NCBI RefSeq assembly: GCF_004011865.1
Contig: NZ_RKLP01000004.1
Location: 310,001 to 374,000, forward strand
DNA length: 64,000 nt
Source: Prescottella agglutinans
GTDB taxonomy: Bacteria > Actinomycetota > Actinomycetes > Mycobacteriales > Mycobacteriaceae
Direction of reading: 5' to 3'
The translations under genes were made by a program, and so were the position numbers. The notes beneath the pieces are model-generated. The model ran no database searches. It was not told the DNA's origin and worked only from the letters and a program-made list of their open reading frames with translations. Each line of letters starts with the position of its first letter. The stretch's first letter is position 1. Shown here piece by piece: positions 3,678 to 11,696 of this stretch.

Positions 3678-4379
3678 TCAGCGCAGTTCCGTCACGAACG
3701 CCATCCGGTCACCCCGGTACAGCGACCGGACGCGCTCGATCGGCACACCGTCGGCGTCGCGGGAGACGCGGTGCAGTTTCAGCATCGGCATCGCGGTGCT
3801 CGACTCGACCAGGCCGGCCTCCCGCGGGGTGGGCAGGGCGGTCTCGATCCGCTCGGTGGCGGTGGTGAACTCGATCCCCTTCGCGCGGATCGCCGCGTAC
3901 AGCGAGGTCTCCGGATCGAACGTGTCCGCGAGGTCCGGGAACCGGCCCAGCGGCAGGTAGGTGCTCTCGAGGCCGATGCGTTCGCCGTCGGCCAGCAGCA
4001 CACGCTCGAGGTGGATCACCGGGTCGCCGATGGCGATCTCCAGGATCTCCGCGAGCTTCTCGTGCGCGTCGATCTCCTCCCACCGCACCAGGATTCGGCC
4101 CGGCTCACGGCCCTGACTGAGCGCGCCCTCGGTGTAGGACCCGAGCGACAGCGGCTGCACCAGCTTCGGCCGCGCGACGACCGTGCCCCTGCCTCGACGC
4201 TCGACGCGTCCGGCCACGAGCAGTTCGTGCAGCGCCTGCCGAACCGTCTCCCGGGAGACGCCACAGCGGGCCGCGAGTTCCCGCTCGGCGGGCACCGGGT
4301 CGCCCTCGGACAGTTCCGCGAGCAGGTCCTCCACATGCGTCCGCACGACGTAGTGCTTGGGCAGGCTCTCGGCGGTCAT
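3678..4379 (-). CDS. GntR/HutC-family transcriptional regulator of the phosphonate locus (PhnF-like)
   Basis: Regulator of 233 residues: an N-terminal winged helix (PAERELAARCGVSRETVRQALHELLVAGRVERRGRGT, about residues 24-60) followed by a UTRA ligand-binding domain (about 80-230) with the typical EEIDAHEKLAEILEIAIGDPVIHLERVLLADGERIGLESTYLP pattern. The ATG at 4379 overlaps the stop of the HD gene upstream (ATGA), so the two are co-transcribed and translationally coupled. HutC-type regulators such as PhnF and DasR bind TGGTnTAGACCA-type palindromes, and two such sites lie in the divergent promoter region 560-620 bases upstream. Inferred role: autoregulated, ligand-relieved repressor of both divergent units. 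Confidence 0.88.
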   Translation of the reverse strand: MTAESLPKHYVVRTHVEDLLAELSEGDPVPAERELAARCGVSRETVRQALHELLVAGRVERRGRGTVVARPKLVQPLSLGSYTEGALSQGREPGRILVRWEEIDAHEKLAEILEIAIGDPVIHLERVLLADGERIGLESTYLPLGRFPDLADTFDPETSLYAAIRAKGIEFTTATERIETALPTPREAGLVESSTAMPMLKLHRVSRDADGVPIERVRSLYRGDRMAFVTELR

Positions 4380-4915
4380 CGCGCCGCCCGCCCGACACGC
4401 ACCCGACGCGCCACCGCGAGGATCTCGTCGATCGACGGCGCCTGCGCGCCGGGCACTTTCGCGCCGTCGTCGTACCGGCGCAATCGGACTGCGTCCGACC
4501 ACCAGGGGTGCGACACCCATTCCTCCGCGACGGCAGGGCCGCCCTGGTGCCGCAATGTCGCCATCGACTCCGACGACAGCGTCCCGACGTACGCGGGATC
4601 GGTGGCCGCCAGGTACCGCTTGGCCGCGACGTGCGCCCCCGCCAGCCAGCCGACCCGCTCACCGAACCGCGGCGTGAGCCAGGCCCGGGCGACACGATCG
4701 TGCGGCGCGTCGGCGGGCGCGGCCGTCAGCGGACTGCGCGCCAGATCGTGCAGCGCACTGGCCAACACCAGGTCGTCGTCGGCTCCGTCCGCGATCGCCC
4801 GGCCGGCGGACTGGAGCGCGTGGTCGAGTTCGTCGACCGCCTCGCCGTCGAACACCCCACAGAGCGAATTCAACAGCGCAGCAGCCTCTTCGAGTACGGC
4901 GGAATCGTCGTTCAC
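4376..4915 (-). CDS. PhnZ-family HD-domain protein (phosphonate degradation associated), variant active site
   Basis: Protein of 179 residues resembling PhnZ, the mixed-valent di-iron oxygenase that cleaves 2-amino-1-hydroxyethylphosphonate to glycine and phosphate. Numbered from the GTG at 4915, expected iron ligands are present: His32, His56-Asp57, His72, His95 and Asp150. The family signature AAKRYL ... LSSESMATLRHQGG is clear. Two positions differ from PhnZ as I remember it: the substrate-gating Tyr (Y24) is Phe22, and the HDxxH histidine (H62) is Arg60. An alternative TTG start at 4933 would abut operator 1. It overlaps the GntR gene by four bases. No PhnY hydroxylase is nearby, so the substrate is uncertain. 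Confidence 0.85.
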   Translation of the reverse strand: MNDDSAVLEEAAALLNSLCGVFDGEAVDELDHALQSAGRAIADGADDDLVLASALHDLARSPLTAAPADAPHDRVARAWLTPRFGERVGWLAGAHVAAKRYLAATDPAYVGTLSSESMATLRHQGGPAVAEEWVSHPWWSDAVRLRRYDDGAKVPGAQAPSIDEILAVARRVRVGRAAR

Positions 4916-4936
4916 GCCTGTCAGCCTACACAAATT

Positions 4937-4950
4937 CCGGTCTATACCAA
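4937..4950. promoter_or_regulatory. Putative GntR operator 1 (HD gene side)
   Basis: CCGGTCTATACCAA; read on the minus strand it contains TGGTATAGACC, nearly identical to the PhnF-type operator TGGTATAGACCA as I recall it. It lies 22 bases upstream of the HD-gene GTG, where it would overlap the -10 region or transcription start. Confidence 0.6.
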
Positions 4951-4983
4951 TTGTTCATCTGGCGTTTCCCGAACGTCCCCCAG

Positions 4984-4997
4984 TTGGTCTAGACCAA
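4984..4997. promoter_or_regulatory. Putative GntR operator 2 (oxidoreductase side)
   Basis: A perfect 14-bp palindrome, TTGGTCTAGACCAA, matching the DasR/PhnF-type consensus TGGTCTAGACCA. It is 47 bases centre to centre from operator 1 and ends 17 bases before the ATG of the FAD oxidoreductase, so a bound repressor would block initiation. Confidence 0.68.
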
Positions 4998-5014
4998 TGT
5001 TCAGGCTGTGTCCC

Positions 5015-6142
5015 ATGCGAATTGCAATTGTGGGCGGAGGAATCCTCGGCACGGCGCATGCCGACGAGGCCATCCGACGCGGACACGACGTCGTCCATCT
5101 CGAACGCGAACTCGAAGCGCGCGGTGCCACCGTACGCAACTTCGGATTGGTCTGGGTCTCCGGCCGGGCCGAGCACGAACTCGACGCCTCGCTGCGTTCC
5201 CGGGAACTGTGGGCCGACCTCGCCCGACGCGTGCCCGAGATCGGCTTCCGCACCGCCGGGTCGATGACGCTGCTGCGCACCCCCGAGGAGGTCGCGGTCG
5301 CCGAGGACATGGCGGCGCGCGCCGACGCCGACGTCCGCGGCTTCAGCCTGCTCGAGCCCGACGCGGTCCGCACGGTCAACCCCGCGCTGCGCGGCAAGTT
5401 CCTGGCCGGTCTGCACTGCACCCGGGACGGCGCGGTCGAGTCCCGGATCGCGCTGCCCGCGATCCGCCGCCACCTCGCGACGTCGGGCCGGTACGAGTTC
5501 CACGCCGGCACCGAGGCCCGCGAGATCACCACCGGAGCAGCGGGCGTCCGCATCCGCGACGACCACGGCCGCACCTTCGAGGCCGACCTCGCCATCGTGT
5601 GCCCGGGCGCCACCCTCGGCGGGCTCGCCCGGGACCTGGCCGGCGACCTGCCGCTGCGCCGGGTCCGCCTGCAGATGATGCAGACCGCACCGCTCGGCGA
5701 GGCCCTGACCACCGCGATCGCCGACGGCGACAGCATGCGCTACTACCCGGCCTTCGCGGGATCCACGCTCGACGCCCTGCGCGACGCCCAACCCCAGGAG
5801 CCCACCGCGGCCGAGCACCGCATGCAGTTGCTGTGCGTGCAGCGCCTGCACGGCGGCCTCACCATCGGCGACACCCACGAGTACGACGAGCCGTTCGACT
5901 TCGACGTCGACGAGGCCCCGTACCGCCACCTGACGAGCGTCGTCGAGGAACTCCTCGGCCGGCACCTGCCGCCGATCGTCAAGCGCTGGGCCGGCGTCTA
6001 CAGCCAGTGCCTCGACCCCGCCCAACTGGTGCATCGCGCCCAGCCCGCCGACGGCGTGTGCGTCGTGGCCGGACCGGGCGGACGCGGCATGACCCTCGGC
6101 CCGGCCCTCGCCGAACAGACCGCCGACCAACTGGGCCTGTAA
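5015..6142 (+). CDS. FAD-dependent oxidoreductase, TIGR03364-type phosphonate catabolism enzyme (PbfD-like)
   Basis: D-amino-acid-oxidase-fold flavoenzyme of 375 residues. The N-terminal FAD-binding motif IVGGGILGTAHADEA is followed by an acidic residue at the end of beta-2 (HLERE). The C-terminal CVVAGPGGRGMTLGPALAEQTA closes the dinucleotide fold. The family is known to sit beside phosphonatase-like hydrolases and aminoethylphosphonate importers; related enzymes have been reported to oxidise N-alkylated 2-aminoethylphosphonate to phosphonoacetaldehyde (from memory). The ATG at 5015 is chosen because the ATG at 4997 overlaps the operator. It heads a six-gene operon, with 22 bases to the next gene. 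The exact substrate is inferred. Confidence 0.86.
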   Translation: MRIAIVGGGILGTAHADEAIRRGHDVVHLERELEARGATVRNFGLVWVSGRAEHELDASLRSRELWADLARRVPEIGFRTAGSMTLLRTPEEVAVAEDMAARADADVRGFSLLEPDAVRTVNPALRGKFLAGLHCTRDGAVESRIALPAIRRHLATSGRYEFHAGTEAREITTGAAGVRIRDDHGRTFEADLAIVCPGATLGGLARDLAGDLPLRRVRLQMMQTAPLGEALTTAIADGDSMRYYPAFAGSTLDALRDAQPQEPTAAEHRMQLLCVQRLHGGLTIGDTHEYDEPFDFDVDEAPYRHLTSVVEELLGRHLPPIVKRWAGVYSQCLDPAQLVHRAQPADGVCVVAGPGGRGMTLGPALAEQTADQLGL

Positions 6143-6164
6143 CCCCGACACCTCAGGAGAGACC

Positions 6165-6842
6165 GTGACCACCATCAAGCTCGCCGTCCTCGACATGGCC
6201 GGCACCACCGTCGCCGACGACGGCCTCGTGCTCCGTGCGTTCGACGCCGCCGGAGCCGCCGCCGGGCTGCCCGCGACGGGCCCCGAGGCCGACGCCGCCC
6301 GCCGGTACGTCCTCGACACGATGGGCCAGTCCAAGATCGTCGTGTTCCGTGTCCTGTTCGGGGACGAGGACCGCGCCCAGGCCGCCAACCGCGCGTTCGA
6401 GACCGAGTACGACCGCCTGGTCGACGAGGGCGGCGCGGCCGCGATTCCCGGTGCCGCCGAGTCGATCACCGCGCTGCGCGATGCCGGCGTCCAGGTGGCG
6501 CTGACCACCGGCTTCAGCCGCACCACCCAGGACAAGCTGCTGGCGGCGCTCGGCTGGCAGACGCTCGCCGACCTGACGCTCTCCCCCGCCGAGGCGGGAC
6601 GCGGTCGCCCCTACCCCGACCTGATCCTCACCGCCCTCATGCGTCTCGGCGTCGACGACGTGAAGGACGTTGCCGTCCTGGGCGATACCGCCAGCGACAT
6701 CACCAGCGGCCGACGGGCGGGCGCGAGCATCGTCGCCGGCGCGCTGACCGGCGCACACGACGAGCAGCAGTTGCGCGCCGCCGACCCGACCCACGTCGTG
6801 CCGTCGGTCCGCGAGTTCACCGATCTCGTTCTCTCGCACTGA
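6165..6842 (+). CDS. Phosphonatase-like HAD hydrolase (TIGR03351 type)
   Basis: HAD-superfamily protein of 225 residues, predicted to cleave the C-P bond of phosphonoacetaldehyde or a close analogue. Seen: nucleophile Asp10 in LDMAGTT, the phosphonatase-like motif MGQSK with Lys57 in the position of the Schiff-base lysine of PhnX, the Thr of ALTTGF, GRPYPDLI, and the acidic GDTASDI motif. It is shorter than classical PhnX (about 265-270 residues), as usual for this subfamily. GTG start at 6165 with AGGAGAGACC just upstream. It lies between the oxidoreductase that could make its substrate and the importer genes. Confidence 0.87.
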   Translation: MTTIKLAVLDMAGTTVADDGLVLRAFDAAGAAAGLPATGPEADAARRYVLDTMGQSKIVVFRVLFGDEDRAQAANRAFETEYDRLVDEGGAAAIPGAAESITALRDAGVQVALTTGFSRTTQDKLLAALGWQTLADLTLSPAEAGRGRPYPDLILTALMRLGVDDVKDVAVLGDTASDITSGRRAGASIVAGALTGAHDEQQLRAADPTHVVPSVREFTDLVLSH

Positions 6843-6900
6843 GCTTCTTCCCGAGTTCTTCCGTCACCGTTCGAATCCCTCACCCAGACAGGAAATCCGA

Positions 6901-7962
6901 ATGCGCAAGAACACCAAGCTTTTCCGCGTCGGCGTCGCAGCCGTCGCCATGACCACCGCGGCCCTCACTCTCACCGCGTGCGGCGGCACCGGCGCGGCGG
7001 CCGGCACCGGCGGCGAGACCGTCACCGTCTACAGCGCCGACGGCCTCGCCGGCTGGTACAAGACGCAGTTCGCCGCGTTCACCGAGGAGACCGGCATCGC
7101 GGTCAACCTCGTCGAGGCCGGCTCCGGCGAGGTCGTCTCCCGTGTCGACAAGGAGCAGTCGAACCCGCAGGCCGACGTCGTGGTGACGCTGCCGCCGTTC
7201 ATCCAGAAGGCCGAGGCCCAGGGCCTGCTGCAGCCCAGCGGCATCGACACCTCCGCGGTGCCCGCCGGCGTCCATGACCCGGCCGGCCAGTACGTCCCCG
7301 TCGTCGACAACTACCTGTCGTTCATCGCGAACCCCGGCGCGAACCCGGCCCCCAAGACGTGGGACGACCTGCTCTCCGACCAGTTCAAGGGCAAGCTGCA
7401 GTACTCCACCCCGGGCCAAGCCGGCGACGGCACCGCCGTCCTGCTGCTGCTCCAGCACCTGATGGGCAAGGAGGGCGCGCTCGACTACCTGTCGAAGCTG
7501 CAGGCCAACAACGTCGGACCGTCGTCGTCGACGGGCAAGCTGCAGCCCAAGGTCAGCAACGGTGAACTCCTGGTCGCGAACGGCGACGTCCAGATGAACC
7601 TCGCGTCGATCGCGGACGACGGCTCGAAGTTCGAGATCTTCTTCCCCGCCTCCGCCGACGGCAAGCGCACCACCATCGCGCTGCCGTACGTGATGGGTCT
7701 GGCCAAGGGGGCCCCGCACTCCGACGAGGCCAAGAAGCTGATGGAGTTCCTGCTGTCCGAGAAGGCGCAGCAGTCCGTCGCCGGTGACGCGCGCGGCGTG
7801 TCCGTCCGCACCGACGTCCGCGCGGCCGCGGGCAACTCGACGGACCCGTCGACCCCGACCGGTCTGGTGAACGGCGTCGAGGTGTGGACCCCGAACTGGA
7901 ACGACGTCCTCGCCTCGCTGGACGCCGACATCGCCGCCTACCAGAAGGCAACCGGTAACTGA
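6901..7962 (+). CDS. Phosphonate (2-aminoethylphosphonate-type) ABC transporter substrate-binding lipoprotein
   Basis: Lipoprotein of 353 residues with a type II signal peptide (MRKNTKLFRVGVAAVAMTTA..., lipobox LTAC, lipidated Cys27). The mature protein is a ferric/AEP-type binding protein: VTVYSADGLAGWYKTQFAAFTEETGI, and SRVDKEQSNPQADVVVTLPPFIQKA. It should capture the phosphonate outside the membrane and deliver it to the two permeases. The ATG at 6901 has AGGAAATCCGA upstream. Its stop is one base from the start of the ATPase gene. Assignment to AEP-like ligands rests on family and operon context. Confidence 0.86.
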   Translation: MRKNTKLFRVGVAAVAMTTAALTLTACGGTGAAAGTGGETVTVYSADGLAGWYKTQFAAFTEETGIAVNLVEAGSGEVVSRVDKEQSNPQADVVVTLPPFIQKAEAQGLLQPSGIDTSAVPAGVHDPAGQYVPVVDNYLSFIANPGANPAPKTWDDLLSDQFKGKLQYSTPGQAGDGTAVLLLLQHLMGKEGALDYLSKLQANNVGPSSSTGKLQPKVSNGELLVANGDVQMNLASIADDGSKFEIFFPASADGKRTTIALPYVMGLAKGAPHSDEAKKLMEFLLSEKAQQSVAGDARGVSVRTDVRAAAGNSTDPSTPTGLVNGVEVWTPNWNDVLASLDADIAAYQKATGN

Positions 7963-7963
7963 C

Positions 7964-9157
7964 ATGCCACGATTCGAGCCCGGGCGGTCCCTCCGCACCA
8001 CGATCGGCAAGGCACCCGACCCGGCGTCGGGCGAGGCCGACTCGTCCCTTCCGGCCATCACATTCGACCGGGTGAACGTCGCGTACGGACACGGACGCGG
8101 GGCCACCCGGGCCCTGATCGACTTCAACCTCCGCGTGGCGCGCGGCGAGACCGTCGCCCTGCTCGGCCCCAGCGGCTCGGGCAAGTCCACCGCGCTCAAG
8201 GCACTGGCCGGGTTCACCCGACCGGTGTCGGGCACGGTCCGCCTCGGCGGCCGGGACGTCACCGACCTGCCGCCCGCCAAGCGGGGTATCGGCGTCGTCG
8301 TCCAGTCGTACGCCCTATTCCCGCACATGCGGGTCGCCGAGAACGTCGCGTTCGGTCTTCGCGCGCACCGGGTTCCGCGCGCCGAGATCGCCGGCCGCGT
8401 GTCCGACGCCCTCGCGATGGTCGGGATGTCGGCGTACGGCAAGCGCTTTCCGCGCGAGCTGTCCGGTGGCCAGCAACAGCGCGTGGCGATCGCCCGCGCG
8501 CTGGCGATCCGGCCGAAGGTGCTGCTGCTCGACGAGCCCCTCGCGGCCCTGGACGCGCAACTGCGCCAGAGCATGCTCACCGAACTGCAGGAGTTGCGGG
8601 CCGCGCTGCCGGACACCGCGATGCTGTACGTCACCCACGACCAGTCCGAGGCCCTCGCGCTCGCGGACCGGATCGCGGTGATGCGCGACGCCCGCCTGGT
8701 GGACGTCGACACCACCGAGAACCTGTGGAAGCGCCCGCCGAGCAGCTTCACGGCGGCGTTCCTCGGGGGCGCGAACCTGCTGCCGTGCAACGTGACCCGC
8801 GTGATCGGGACGTCGGCGCTGGTCTCGGTGGGCGGCACGCCCGTCACCGCACACGCCCCGCAACCCGAGATCGGCCGCACCGAATGGGAGTCCGACGCCG
8901 ACGCGCTGCTCTGCCTGCGCCCGCACGCGATCACCCTCACCTCCCCCGCCGAGCGTGGGGCGCTGCCGGGCCGGATCGTCGCCAGCGTGTGGCGCGGCGC
9001 GTCGACCAGAGTGACGATCGCGCTCCCGAGCCTGCCCGAAACACCGATCGACGTCGACGTCCCCGGCCACGACGAGCGTCCCGTCGGCACCGAGGTCGGC
9101 ATGCGGTTCCCCGAGCGCGGTGCCGTGCTGGTGCCGGTTCCGAGGGTGGCGTCGTGA
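7964..9157 (+). CDS. Phosphonate ABC transporter ATP-binding protein (PhnT-like)
   Basis: ATPase of 397 residues. Walker A GPSGSGKST (68-76), Q-loop VVVQSYALFPHM, signature LSGGQQQR (166-173), Walker B VLLLDEP (186-192), and H-loop VTHDQSEA are all intact. The C-terminal about 150 residues form a TOBE/OB regulatory domain as in the spermidine/putrescine-2-aminoethylphosphonate family. An unusual N-terminal extension of about 30 residues precedes the core. Its stop overlaps the permease start (GTGA), indicating translational coupling. It powers uptake together with the two downstream permeases. Confidence 0.9.
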   Translation: MPRFEPGRSLRTTIGKAPDPASGEADSSLPAITFDRVNVAYGHGRGATRALIDFNLRVARGETVALLGPSGSGKSTALKALAGFTRPVSGTVRLGGRDVTDLPPAKRGIGVVVQSYALFPHMRVAENVAFGLRAHRVPRAEIAGRVSDALAMVGMSAYGKRFPRELSGGQQQRVAIARALAIRPKVLLLDEPLAALDAQLRQSMLTELQELRAALPDTAMLYVTHDQSEALALADRIAVMRDARLVDVDTTENLWKRPPSSFTAAFLGGANLLPCNVTRVIGTSALVSVGGTPVTAHAPQPEIGRTEWESDADALLCLRPHAITLTSPAERGALPGRIVASVWRGASTRVTIALPSLPETPIDVDVPGHDERPVGTEVGMRFPERGAVLVPVPRVAS

Positions 9158-10059
9158 CCGCCGTCCTCGAACCCCCCGTCGTCGACGAGGCACCGCTGCG
9201 TAAGGAACCGTCCCGCCGGCGGTCCGGGCTCTGGGTGCTGCCGCCGCTGCTGCTGGTCGTCGGGTTCGCGGTCTACCCGATGGCCCGGGTGCTGGCCGAG
9301 TCCACCGTCACCGACACCGGCCGCGGCTGGTCCACCTGGTCCGAGGTTCTCGGGTCGGCGTCGTTCCGGAACGCGTTGTGGCGCACCGTCGAGGTGGCCG
9401 TCGCATCTACGCTGGGCTGCCTCGTCCTGGGCACCTTCCTGGCGCTCGTGCTCGCCTTCGTGCCGTTCCCCGGGTCCAAGGTGGTGGGCCGGCTGATCGA
9501 CACGATCCTGTCGCTGCCGTCGTTCCTCGTCACGCTCGCGTTCACGTTCCTCTACGGCACCGCCGGCGCCGTGAACGCGCTCATCACCCGGATCACCGGC
9601 GCCGAGCAGGGGCCGCTGAACTTCCTGAACACCCCGCTCGGCGTGATCGCCGCCGAGATCACGTTCTTCACGCCGTTCGTGGTGCGTCCGCTGCTGGCGG
9701 CGTTCTCCCAGATCCCTCGCGACCAACTCGACGTCGCCGCGAGCCTGGGCGCCTCGCCGCTGCGGGTGCTGCGTCAGGTGGTGCTGCCCGAAGCATGGCC
9801 TGCGATGATGGCCGGCGGATCGCTCGTACTGCTGTTGACGCTCAACGAGTTCGGCATCGTGCTGTTCACCGGCGCCAAGGACGTCATGACGCTGCCGGTG
9901 CTGATCTACACGCACGGCATCGTCACGTTCGACCTGCCCGGCGCGGCCGTGATCGCGACGGTCCAGGTGGCGCTGTCGCTCGCCCTGTACGGCGGCTACC
10001 GATTCCTGTTCGCCCGACTGATGGGAGGCAGCCGTGCTGCTGTGGACCCGACGCGCTAG
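9154..10059 (+). CDS. Phosphonate ABC transporter permease 1 (PhnU-like)
   Basis: Integral membrane protein of 301 residues with about six predicted helices; the first is LWVLPPLLLVVGFAVYPMARV. The EAA loop that contacts the ATPase is visible as LDVAASLGASPLRVLRQVVLPEAWPAMMAG (about residues 193-222). GTG start at 9154 overlaps the ATPase stop by four bases; its 3' end overlaps permease 2 by 26 bases. It is one half of a heterodimeric channel. Confidence 0.9.
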   Translation: MTAVLEPPVVDEAPLRKEPSRRRSGLWVLPPLLLVVGFAVYPMARVLAESTVTDTGRGWSTWSEVLGSASFRNALWRTVEVAVASTLGCLVLGTFLALVLAFVPFPGSKVVGRLIDTILSLPSFLVTLAFTFLYGTAGAVNALITRITGAEQGPLNFLNTPLGVIAAEITFFTPFVVRPLLAAFSQIPRDQLDVAASLGASPLRVLRQVVLPEAWPAMMAGGSLVLLLTLNEFGIVLFTGAKDVMTLPVLIYTHGIVTFDLPGAAVIATVQVALSLALYGGYRFLFARLMGGSRAAVDPTR

Positions 10060-10831
10060 GTATCTGACGCTCACGTTCTTCGCGGCGGTGGTCGCGATCG
10101 TGTTCGTCGCGCCGATCGCGACCGTGATCGCGGCCGCCCTCGCGGGGGCCTGGAACGGGCCGTTGCCGTCGGATCTCGGGACGAAGAACCTGTCGGCGGC
10201 GCTGTCCGACGAGAACCTGGCCAGCATGATCGTCAGCCTGCAGACCGCGATCATCGCCGGCGGACTCGCGCTCGTCGTCGGAACCTGGGCGGCACTCGCG
10301 GCGCGGGAGGCGCCGACGTGGCTGCGCAAGGTCACCGACGCGGTGTTCCACCTGCCCGTCGCGCTCCCGTCGGTGGCCATCGGTCTGGGTCTGCTCATCG
10401 CGTTCAACGAGCGACCACTGCTGCTGGGTGGCACCAAGTGGATCGTCATCCTCGCCCACGCGGTGCTGGTGCTGGCGTTCGCGTTCAGTTCGGTCTCCGC
10501 GGCGCTGGATCGCTTCGATCCCGCCTACCGGCAGGCAGCCGAATCCCTGGGTGCCGGGCCGGCCCGGGTGCTGCTCCGGATCACGCTGCCGCTGCTGGTG
10601 CCCGCCCTCGGCGCCGCCGCCGGCCTGTCCGTCGCGCTGTCGATGGGCGAGCTGGGCGCCACGATCATGGTGTACCCGGCGACGTGGAAGACGTTGCCGG
10701 TAGCCATCTTCGGACTCACCGACCGTGGACAGGTGTTCCAGGCCGCCGCGAACACCACCCTGCTGCTCCTGGTCACCCTCCTCGCCCTGCTGGTGCTCGG
10801 GCGGATCCGGGGCCGCGGCGCGGCGCGCTGA
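10034..10831 (+). CDS. Phosphonate ABC transporter permease 2 (PhnV-like)
   Basis: Integral membrane protein of 265 residues starting at the GTG at 10034 inside the end of permease 1 (26-base overlap, different frame). Helices are clear: YLTLTFFAAVVAIVFVAPIATVIAAAL at the N-terminus and TTLLLLVTLLALLVLGRI at the C-terminus. The EAA motif reads YRQAAESLGAGPARVLLRITLPLLVPALG. It is the last gene of the operon; a palindromic repeat six bases after the stop probably ends transcription. Confidence 0.9.
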   Translation: MLLWTRRARYLTLTFFAAVVAIVFVAPIATVIAAALAGAWNGPLPSDLGTKNLSAALSDENLASMIVSLQTAIIAGGLALVVGTWAALAAREAPTWLRKVTDAVFHLPVALPSVAIGLGLLIAFNERPLLLGGTKWIVILAHAVLVLAFAFSSVSAALDRFDPAYRQAAESLGAGPARVLLRITLPLLVPALGAAAGLSVALSMGELGATIMVYPATWKTLPVAIFGLTDRGQVFQAAANTTLLLLVTLLALLVLGRIRGRGAAR

Positions 10832-10836
10832 CCCCG

Positions 10837-10914
10837 CTCGGTCTGATCGTCCATTCTTCGCTCCGCCGCGCGGAATCCCGCGTCCCCGGGCCAGGAATAG
10901 GCGATCAGGCCGAG
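10837..10914. repeat. REP-like intergenic palindromic element, copy 1
   Basis: Long inverted repeat: left arm CTCGGTCTGATCG (10837-10849) pairs with CGATCAGGCCGAG (10902-10914) with one G-U type mismatch, and pairing continues inward through TCCATTC/GGAATAGG. The loop carries an internal GCGGAATCCCGC-like palindrome. It lies between convergent genes and overlaps the last codons of the SGNH gene. A second, similar element is at 13998-14067. Confidence 0.6.
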
Positions 10915-11696
10915 AACGTATCCTGCTCGCCCGCCCGCCGGACCGGAGTAAGTTCCGGACGCTTCGCGACGCGACCGGCGCCCGACGACGTTCCGCGCAC
11001 GCGGCGCCCGAGCCACGGCCCGAGGAACCGGACCGCCCAATCGGTGTCGGAACGGATTCGCCCGAGCACGGTGACCGGCGGCAGCGGACCCAGACTGTCC
11101 TGCCAGCTCAGGTCGGTGCCGGGCACTCCCAGCACCGTGGCCGCGGCCGCGGCCAGACGGTCGTGTCCATCCGCGTTGAGGTGCAGTCGATCCCAGCTCC
11201 ACAGCCGCGGGTCCGTCGCGACCGGGTACACCTCGAGGTCGATCACCGCGACATCGTGGCGTGCCGCGGCCGCCCGGATCTCCGTGTTCAGCGCCGAGAT
11301 CCGGGCCATGATCGCGCGGCCGCCCGGCATGCCCGCCCCGAGCGTGGGGAACGCCATCGTCAGCACCCGGGCACCCGACGCGGTCAGCGCCTCGAACGCG
11401 ATCTCCAGTTCGGCTGCGATCGCGACAGGTTCGAACTTCGGTCGCAGCAGGTCGTTCACGCCGGCGACGACGGATGCCAGGTCGGGTTCCAGCGCCAACG
11501 CCGGGGCCAACTGCTCCTCCCGCACCTGGCGGGCCAGCCGGCCCCGGATCGCGAGGTTGGCGTAGAGCATCTCGGGGTTGATCTCCGCGAGCCGCTCGGC
11601 GAGCCGGTCCGCCCAGCCTCGGTAACCCAGCAGGTCGTCGCCGTCGTTGAGTCCTTCGCTCTGGCTGTCACCGATCGCCACGAACCGACTGAACAC
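10905..11696 (-). CDS. SGNH/GDSL-family hydrolase
   Basis: Predicted esterase or lipase of 263 residues. The four SGNH blocks are visible: block I AIGDSQSEG with the catalytic Ser near the N-terminus, the Gly block (NLAIRG), block III GVNDLL with Asn, and block V DRLHLNADGH with the Asp-His pair near residue 190. No signal peptide, so probably cytoplasmic. GTG start at 11696. It is convergent with the phosphonate operon and divergent from the HEAT-like gene. The natural substrate is unknown. Confidence 0.85.
   Translation of the reverse strand: MFSRFVAIGDSQSEGLNDGDDLLGYRGWADRLAERLAEINPEMLYANLAIRGRLARQVREEQLAPALALEPDLASVVAGVNDLLRPKFEPVAIAAELEIAFEALTASGARVLTMAFPTLGAGMPGGRAIMARISALNTEIRAAAARHDVAVIDLEVYPVATDPRLWSWDRLHLNADGHDRLAAAAATVLGVPGTDLSWQDSLGPLPPVTVLGRIRSDTDWAVRFLGPWLGRRVRGTSSGAGRVAKRPELTPVRRAGEQDTFSA

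Follow-up and report, generated by a model that had tools for sequence, protein, structure and literature searches.

Genomic analysis of a putative GntR-controlled aminophosphonate locus of Prescottella agglutinans with a PbfD-type flavoenzyme, a PhnX-like hydrolase and a divergent HD-domain protein

Related systems and the locus of this study

A route in which a PbfD flavoenzyme is combined with the hydrolase PhnX was shown biochemically in 2023, including a version without the transaminase PhnW; two PbfD enzymes accept N-methyl-2-aminoethylphosphonate (N-methyl-AEP, M1AEP) and 2-aminoethylphosphonate (AEP) as substrates, and PbfD1 of Acinetobacter baumannii is annotated as a member of TIGR03364 (PMC10590968). 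In 2024, HpnW-PhnX operons with a gene for the HD-domain protein PhnHD nearby, and without PhnW or PhnY*, were described for Achromobacter; 1-hydroxy-2-aminoethylphosphonate (HAEP) was proposed from modelling for PhnHD, and whether HpnW supplies PhnHD was left open (PMC11203657). Homologues of the oxygenase PhnZ were reported from 15 of 1186 phnWX and 24 of 75 phnWAY clusters and read as a hint at a separate processing of (R)-HAEP (PMC8154272). In PhnZ and TmpB, the Tyr of a YxxE loop sits on the iron until the substrate binds (PMC8177086), while His62 of PhnZ contacts the substrate hydroxyl and Glu27 its amino group (PMC7916636). Here, we describe a locus at positions 3678–10831 of a 64,000-nucleotide stretch of Prescottella agglutinans (NZ_RKLP01000004.1, positions 310,001 to 374,000), hereafter called the window. 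Its eight genes form two divergent units, one for a GntR-family regulator and an HD-domain protein, the other for an FAD-dependent oxidoreductase, a HAD hydrolase and a four-gene importer, all located as a first-pass annotation had placed them.

Predicted function of the locus

Based on family scores and gene context, we read the locus as probably a GntR-controlled aminophosphonate scavenging system in which one importer supplies two enzyme modules. In the first module, the PbfD-type flavoenzyme would oxidise imported N-methyl-AEP to phosphonoacetaldehyde and methylamine and, because the genome lacks PhnW, probably AEP as well, with release of ammonia and with O2 as the likely acceptor, and the PhnX-like HAD enzyme would hydrolyse phosphonoacetaldehyde to acetaldehyde and phosphate. 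This mechanism is known from homologues, and we infer it for the window. In the second module, the HD protein would act as an independent diiron oxygenase on an alpha-hydroxyphosphonate that the same importer takes up directly. The most likely such compound is (R)-HAEP; phosphate and a carboxylate, here glycine, would be formed, and no hydroxylase partner would be needed. Chance assembly of the locus is excluded by the family scores, with flavoenzyme, hydrolase and substrate-binding protein (SBP) above their cut-offs, and by a gene order that is kept in relatives.

Thus, this compact and self-regulated locus of a soil actinobacterium is predicted to import natural aminophosphonates and to free their phosphate via a flavin enzyme and a hydrolase. 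Since this core pathway has already been published for other bacteria, the window is a further instance and not a new pathway. The new element is mostly the HD protein, whose predicted active site departs from that of known members and which belongs to an actinobacterial subfamily with kept metal ligands and a Trp or Phe gate.

The first-pass annotation had noted that PhnW and the 2-oxoglutarate hydroxylase PhnY* are missing, and this holds for the whole genome (5.4 Mb, completeness rated 100%). The best match to the PhnW model reached 57.7 bits (cut-off 400.8), PhyH-fold hydroxylases such as PhnY* gave no match genome-wide (PF05721; TmpA-type hydroxylases were not searched for), and neither did PhnJ. 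These genome negatives refer to PhnW, PhyH and PhnJ; PhnA, PbfA and the phosphonoacetaldehyde dehydrogenase also named PhnY were not searched for. A single PhnX-like gene in the whole genome scored above its cut-off.

Occurrence of the HD gene with and without the flavoenzyme

Two samples showed that the conserved set of GntR, FAD, HAD and importer genes occurs both with and without HD. Among 298 genomes of the order, 47 carried a TIGR03364 gene above the cut-off and 33 a Phn-HD match at E 0.001, mostly weak, and 40 loci were fetched from genomes with such matches. Ten of these combined flavoenzyme, hydrolase, GntR and all four importer genes without HD, the GntR gene being divergent in L078–L080, L082 and L083 and on the same strand in L085–L087, L089 and L090. 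HD accompanied flavoenzyme, hydrolase and importer in L070 and L072, and also in L073, there as a separate gene; the fetched loci also included versions with a different importer or with none visible. The second set comprised 76 named HD loci from Prescottella, Rhodococcus, Mycolicibacterium, Gordonia, Williamsia and others. In Rhodococcus opacus, Rhodococcus jostii and Gordonia polyisoprenivorans (L143, L144, L208), the GntR-HD unit faces the importer with no FAD or HAD gene within about 9 kb, and the HD gate is Tyr in all three; a further HD-plus-importer locus, of Rhodococcus wratislaviensis (L142), is truncated where its contig ends. In a search for printed accounts of the HD subfamily, no passage seen in PMC8177086, PMC7916636, PMC10574752 and PMC11203657 described such a locus, most subscription papers lying outside the search.

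The HD-plus-importer and HD-less loci show that HD can stand without an adjoining flavoenzyme and the flavoenzyme without HD. Because the HD-plus-importer loci have no flavoenzyme or hydrolase gene nearby, gene context suggests that HD is a branch independent of the flavoenzyme. Its substrate would probably be an alpha-hydroxyphosphonate, for example (R)-HAEP, on which it acts directly after import. Both types of locus support the earlier idea that HD adds a second branch. A single gain of HD together with the operon was rejected, as the HD label has to switch five times on the FAD tree, and well-supported branches force at least four of these switches; with 105 of 500 shuffled labellings needing as few changes, the label is hardly clustered.

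Incomplete versions of the locus were seen in two genomes of the genus. In L130 (genome G302, 6126–9550), GntR, HD and FAD genes are matched over their (near) full length, while of HAD only the first 22 codons are matched and no importer gene was found; the downstream GDSL gene adjoins this stretch. L136 (G303, 8374–8580) has a large internal deletion in HD and the other seven genes near full length, making it a natural HD-minus strain.

Active site and conservation of the HD protein

The earlier label of HD oxygenase homologue proved right for the HD protein, though only as a homologue, since it scores below the TIGR03276 cut-off, as it does for TmpB and PhnZ1. Its nearest named relatives are from Prescottella defluvii (88%), a strain of Rhodococcus hoagii (81%) and Prescottella equi (74%). 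At E 0.01, its PDB relatives by sequence are only PhnZ and TmpB (4/4 distinct sequences), and it keeps all six of their metal ligands, H...HD...H...H...D. Of the 76 named loci, 71 have all six read and kept, the other five having unread positions, and no ligand that was read is replaced. Alignment A4 (window plus 35 of the 76 named loci) has 32 invariant columns, which include the six ligands and the positions of PhnZ K108, S126, Q133 and R158, presumably all with active-site roles; ten such columns drawn at random from about 180 would all be invariant with a chance of about 1e-8. Thus, by sequence, the protein belongs to the same family as PhnZ (paired with PhnY*) and TmpB (paired with TmpA), but differs from them in lacking the YxxE Tyr, in Arg instead of His62 and in a shorter loop before the H80 ligand, and, unlike PhnZ with PhnY*, it has no PhyH-fold hydroxylase partner in its genome.

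In regard to selection, the ratio of nonsynonymous to synonymous substitution rates (dN/dS) of HD was 0.15–0.26 against seven congeners with an intact copy, indicating weaker constraint than on FAD (0.04–0.13). General decay of HD in the genus was rejected on the basis of these ratios and of Phe and Arg being retained in 8/8 intact copies (window included), although G303 has mostly lost the gene. HD is under purifying selection yet optional.

Several observations weigh against our reading of the locus. The window HD has Phe (F28) for the gate Tyr (FxxE) and Arg (R66) for His62, and so have 7/7 congeners with an intact HD. Over the 76 named relatives, the gate residue is Trp in 63, Phe in six, Tyr in five, Val in one and unread in one; position 62 is His in 62, Arg in 13 and unread in one, and position 27 varies, with Glu in 50. 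Owing to these changes of gate Tyr, His62 and Glu27, the chemistry or the substrate may differ from that of PhnZ, and for the window protein, which lacks two active-site residues of known phosphonate oxygenases, any assigned reaction is tentative. HD is also dispensable: the 14 genomes of the genus, the window's own included, comprise eight with an intact gene, G303 with a remnant, G298 with a distant HD (39%) and four with none. Furthermore, the sites of the HD-plus-importer loci are themselves unlike PhnZ, with Arg at His62 in R. opacus and R. jostii and Leu at Glu27 in G. polyisoprenivorans, and these genomes carry PhyH proteins and PhnX-like genes elsewhere. With R. wratislaviensis counted in, the four genomes with HD-plus-importer loci hold PF05721 at 12 places, seven of which were scanned: three gave ectoine hydroxylase above the cut-off, two no family and two weak matches only. 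The best score among these seven to methylphosphonate PhnY was 39.1 bits (cut-off 500), and none matched an NCBIfam model for the AEP enzyme PhnY*, though such a model may not exist; PhnY* may thus be among the PhyH proteins of these genomes. Apart from HD, the cut-offs for PhnT, PhnV and PhnF are all missed, and the preference between AEP and N-methyl-AEP is not separable from sequence.

Some of these points would also fit an HD protein that is now a dinuclear metal hydrolase, e.g., of a phosphonate ester, and no longer an oxygenase: Y24 has become Trp or Phe and H62 Arg, which removes the O2-gating Tyr and the His for the substrate hydroxyl, all three family cut-offs are missed, and the H..HD..H..H..D motif does not mark an oxygenase with full reliability (PMC11203657). 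Nevertheless, we regard this as unlikely in view of the invariant ligands and K108, S126, Q133 and R158 positions in A4, of PDB relatives that are phosphonate oxygenases only, and of close Tyr-gated relatives that stand alone with the same importer.

In the close actinobacterial subfamily, a Tyr gate is absent from every HD linked to an FAD gene of at least 50% identity and occurs in HD-plus-importer loci of two lineages. As a general rule, a link between Trp/Phe gate and flavoenzyme was rejected: Tyr is found together with FAD in an Asticcacaulis plasmid, a Hymenobacter plasmid and L073, a distant locus of the order, Trp occurs without FAD in L177, L179, L180 and L197 (also in L201, on a contig of 4.6 kb), and an isolated HD of a Rhodococcus qingshengii plasmid has Phe and no FAD in the stretch seen. 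The gate of L211 was read as Val in the 76-locus table and as Tyr in an 85-row table, before which L153, L160, L165 and L212 had been dropped as short or containing a stop. In the tree built from these 85 rows, for which the gates of L064 and L065 were set by hand to Tyr from an earlier alignment, bootstrap values are unsettled and distant rows sit on long branches.

Tentatively, the actinobacterial HD proteins may be hydroxylase-free phosphonate oxygenases, one enzyme with importer and regulator forming a complete pathway in R. opacus, R. jostii and G. polyisoprenivorans, and the iron-gating Tyr having been given up for Trp or Phe in operons that hold flavoenzyme and hydrolase as well. If true, a single-enzyme route serves a naturally occurring alpha-hydroxyphosphonate, and the Trp/Phe proteins of flavoenzyme-hydrolase operons are a natural test of the iron gate in diiron HD oxygenases. 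With Tyr, Trp and Phe variants in close homologues, the function of the YxxE loop becomes directly testable.

Two further HD genes were seen in other surroundings. On a mobilizable-typed plasmid of R. qingshengii (L238, 9004–9531), a lone HD with 73% identity to the window protein, a Phe gate and the Arg adjoins arylsulfatase and ABC genes, with no FAD or HAD gene in the stretch. L066 (8402–9529) has a canonical Tyr-gated HD gene next to a gene for a 375-aa protein, which we take to resemble a TmpA-type hydroxylase.

The enzyme trio in other bacteria

The trio of flavoenzyme, hydrolase and HD protein recurs outside the actinobacterial loci. In the Asticcacaulis plasmid, FAD-phnX is divergent from HD, and in the Hymenobacter plasmid HD, FAD and HAD genes lie in one 11-kb stretch, with HD about 9 kb from FAD; since the gate is Tyr in both, it is the actinobacterial subfamily, and not the trio, that is marked by loss of this residue. 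The Achromobacter HpnW-PhnX-PhnHD clusters have the same enzyme trio as the window, both without PhnW and PhnY*. In a comparison of enzymes and regulators, no known cofactor or substrate residue is missing from Achromobacter PhnHD, whereas the window HD lacks two of them, and the clusters use a LysR activator where the window has GntR and paired operators (PMC11203657).

Towards its end, the discussion of the Achromobacter work raises the option that the flavoenzyme makes the substrate of HD, which would then be a downstream step (PMC11203657). In 65 of the 76 loci, an FAD gene faces away from HD on the other strand (in one, L209, a distant FAD of 31%), which would fit such a sequence of steps. 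However, HD and importer occur without FAD in L143, L144 and L208, and the ten HD-less loci have the converse arrangement, so that we consider this option for the window improbable. On the question whether HpnW feeds PhnHD or the two have separate substrates (PMC11203657), importer loci with HD only or with FAD/HAD only speak in favour of separate branches.

More distant gene sets were found in L241, a Caballeronia plasmid on which about 11 kb hold HD, a TIGR03364-like FAD gene and an importer of the AEP type, with nothing that matches the HAD enzyme of the window, and in L209, a contig labelled Candidatus Melainabacteria and possibly a mislabelled bin, with HD (54%) and GntR, HAD and FAD relatives (31–37%).

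Flavoenzyme and hydrolase

The flavoenzyme belongs to TIGR03364, above the curated cut-off (Table 1), and is predicted to be an oxidative deaminase converting N-methyl-AEP and AEP to phosphonoacetaldehyde. Its gene is linked to that of a PhnX-family hydrolase, and a HAD gene is also on the FAD side in 58 of the 76 named HD loci. The hydrolase exceeds the curated cut-off of TIGR03351, misses PhnX proper (TIGR01422, 76.3 bits; cut-off 220) and is predicted to cleave phosphonoacetaldehyde. Its D10 and A12, invariant in 14/14 sequences of alignment A2 (window included), align with D12 and A14 of PhnX, presumably the Asp nucleophile and the Ala at +2. K57 is likewise invariant in 14/14 A2 sequences, and hhalign pairs it, in MG..KI, with PhnX K53, which we take to be the Schiff-base Lys; MAFFT (3/3 settings) and hmmsearch do not, and 14 of 200 shuffles reached the best ungapped segment. 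Owing to these conflicting alignments, proof of a catalytic Lys was dropped.

Altogether, homology and gene context support the first-pass scheme in which the flavoenzyme forms an aldehyde that the HAD enzyme cleaves, the families matching the route of PMC10590968. Compared by family and gene content, its version with PbfD2 and PhnX (Mariniblastus fucicola type; PMC10590968) shares with the window a PbfD-group flavoenzyme, a PhnX-family hydrolase and a genome without PhnW; the window differs in being actinobacterial, in TIGR03351 instead of TIGR01422 and in the extra HD. The TIGR03364 description, as quoted in that paper, would rather have the flavoenzyme oxidise HAEP. We consider this very improbable for the window enzyme, since M1AEP and AEP are the substrates shown for two PbfD enzymes.

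A second actinobacterial class of TIGR03364 (L075, L094, L097–L102) has 28–32% identity to the window enzyme and higher model scores of 388–438 bits. In L101 and L102, its FAD gene occurs with the same importer type (53–60%) and a divergent HAD.

Importer

The importer is of the AEP type, as judged from its sequence. SBP and first permease pass the AEP-transport cut-offs of NF011620 and NF011624, and the PDB entry 4r6y, a putative AEP-binding protein, matches SBP at E 5.1e-90, while SBP stays below the cut-off of TIGR03227 (361.9 versus 395.3 bits). ATPase and second permease have their best scores with the PhnT and PhnV models, both under cut-off. Thus, the gene set is that of the AEP importer PhnSTUV, SBP and PhnU passing curated cut-offs in contrast to PhnT and PhnV. 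That importer and enzymes serve another amine, e.g., a polyamine, is hardly credible: the ATPase also matches PotA-type models, below cut-off, but the SBP and permease scores above AEP equivalog cut-offs and the 4r6y match speak for AEP.

Regulator, operators and gene arrangement

The GntR regulator scores under the PhnF cut-off (TIGR02325, 117.2 versus 156.8 bits). Between the two units lie two palindromes, CGGTCTATACCA and TGGTCTAGACCA, and operator 2 itself is the only site in the 64 kb that matches TGGTCTAGACCA when no more than one mismatch is allowed. A palindrome upstream of HD was present in 71 of 76 loci at up to two mismatches (0–1 of 76 in 20 simulations). Of 21 FAD loci, 15 had such a site upstream of FAD when up to three mismatches were allowed (1.5 expected), two of the 15 holding only a three-mismatch site. 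The same operator pair with 47 bp spacing recurs in the HD-plus-importer loci of R. opacus, R. jostii and G. polyisoprenivorans. We infer that GntR binds this pair, from which an aminophosphonate-derived inducer would release it and thereby both units. The analysis places a PbfD route that dispenses with a transaminase, together with a dedicated importer and paired operators, in many actinobacteria.

HD starts with GTG at 4915, and the GntR start at 4379 overlaps the HD stop as ATGA. On the other strand, 22 bases separate the FAD stop from the HAD start and 58 bases HAD from SBP, the other importer genes abutting or overlapping.

Table 1. Predicted genes and operators of the locus, with window coordinates and model scores.
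Feature	Coordinates	Strand	Evidence
GntR/HutC-family regulator (GntR + UTRA), PhnF-like, probable repressor of both units	3678..4379	-	UTRA 115.3 bits
HD-domain protein, divergent relative of PhnZ/TmpB	4376..4915	-	TIGR03276 129.3 bits (cut-off 214.6)
Operator 1, CGGTCTATACCA, HD-proximal (predicted)	4938..4949	.	conserved across relatives
Operator 2, TGGTCTAGACCA, FAD-proximal (predicted)	4985..4996	.	47 bp from operator 1
FAD-dependent oxidoreductase, TIGR03364 = PbfD/HpnW	5015..6142	+	349.8 bits (cut-off 285.1); DAO 159.4 bits
HAD phosphonatase-like hydrolase, TIGR03351 (PhnX-like)	6165..6842	+	242.8 bits (cut-off 218.9)
SBP, 2-aminoethylphosphonate ABC importer	6901..7962	+	NF011620 490.6 bits (cut-off 310)
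ABC ATPase, PhnT-like	7964..9157	+	TIGR03258 352.2 bits, below cut-off 499.15
ABC permease, PhnU type	9154..10059	+	NF011624 418.7 bits (cut-off 247); TIGR03226 298.8 bits (cut-off 283.45)
ABC permease, PhnV-like	10034..10831	+	TIGR03255 215.1 bits, below cut-off 358.7

Directly downstream of the operon, a convergent gene for a GDSL-type hydrolase was found (window positions 10905–11696), which is also nearby in L129, L130 and L134.

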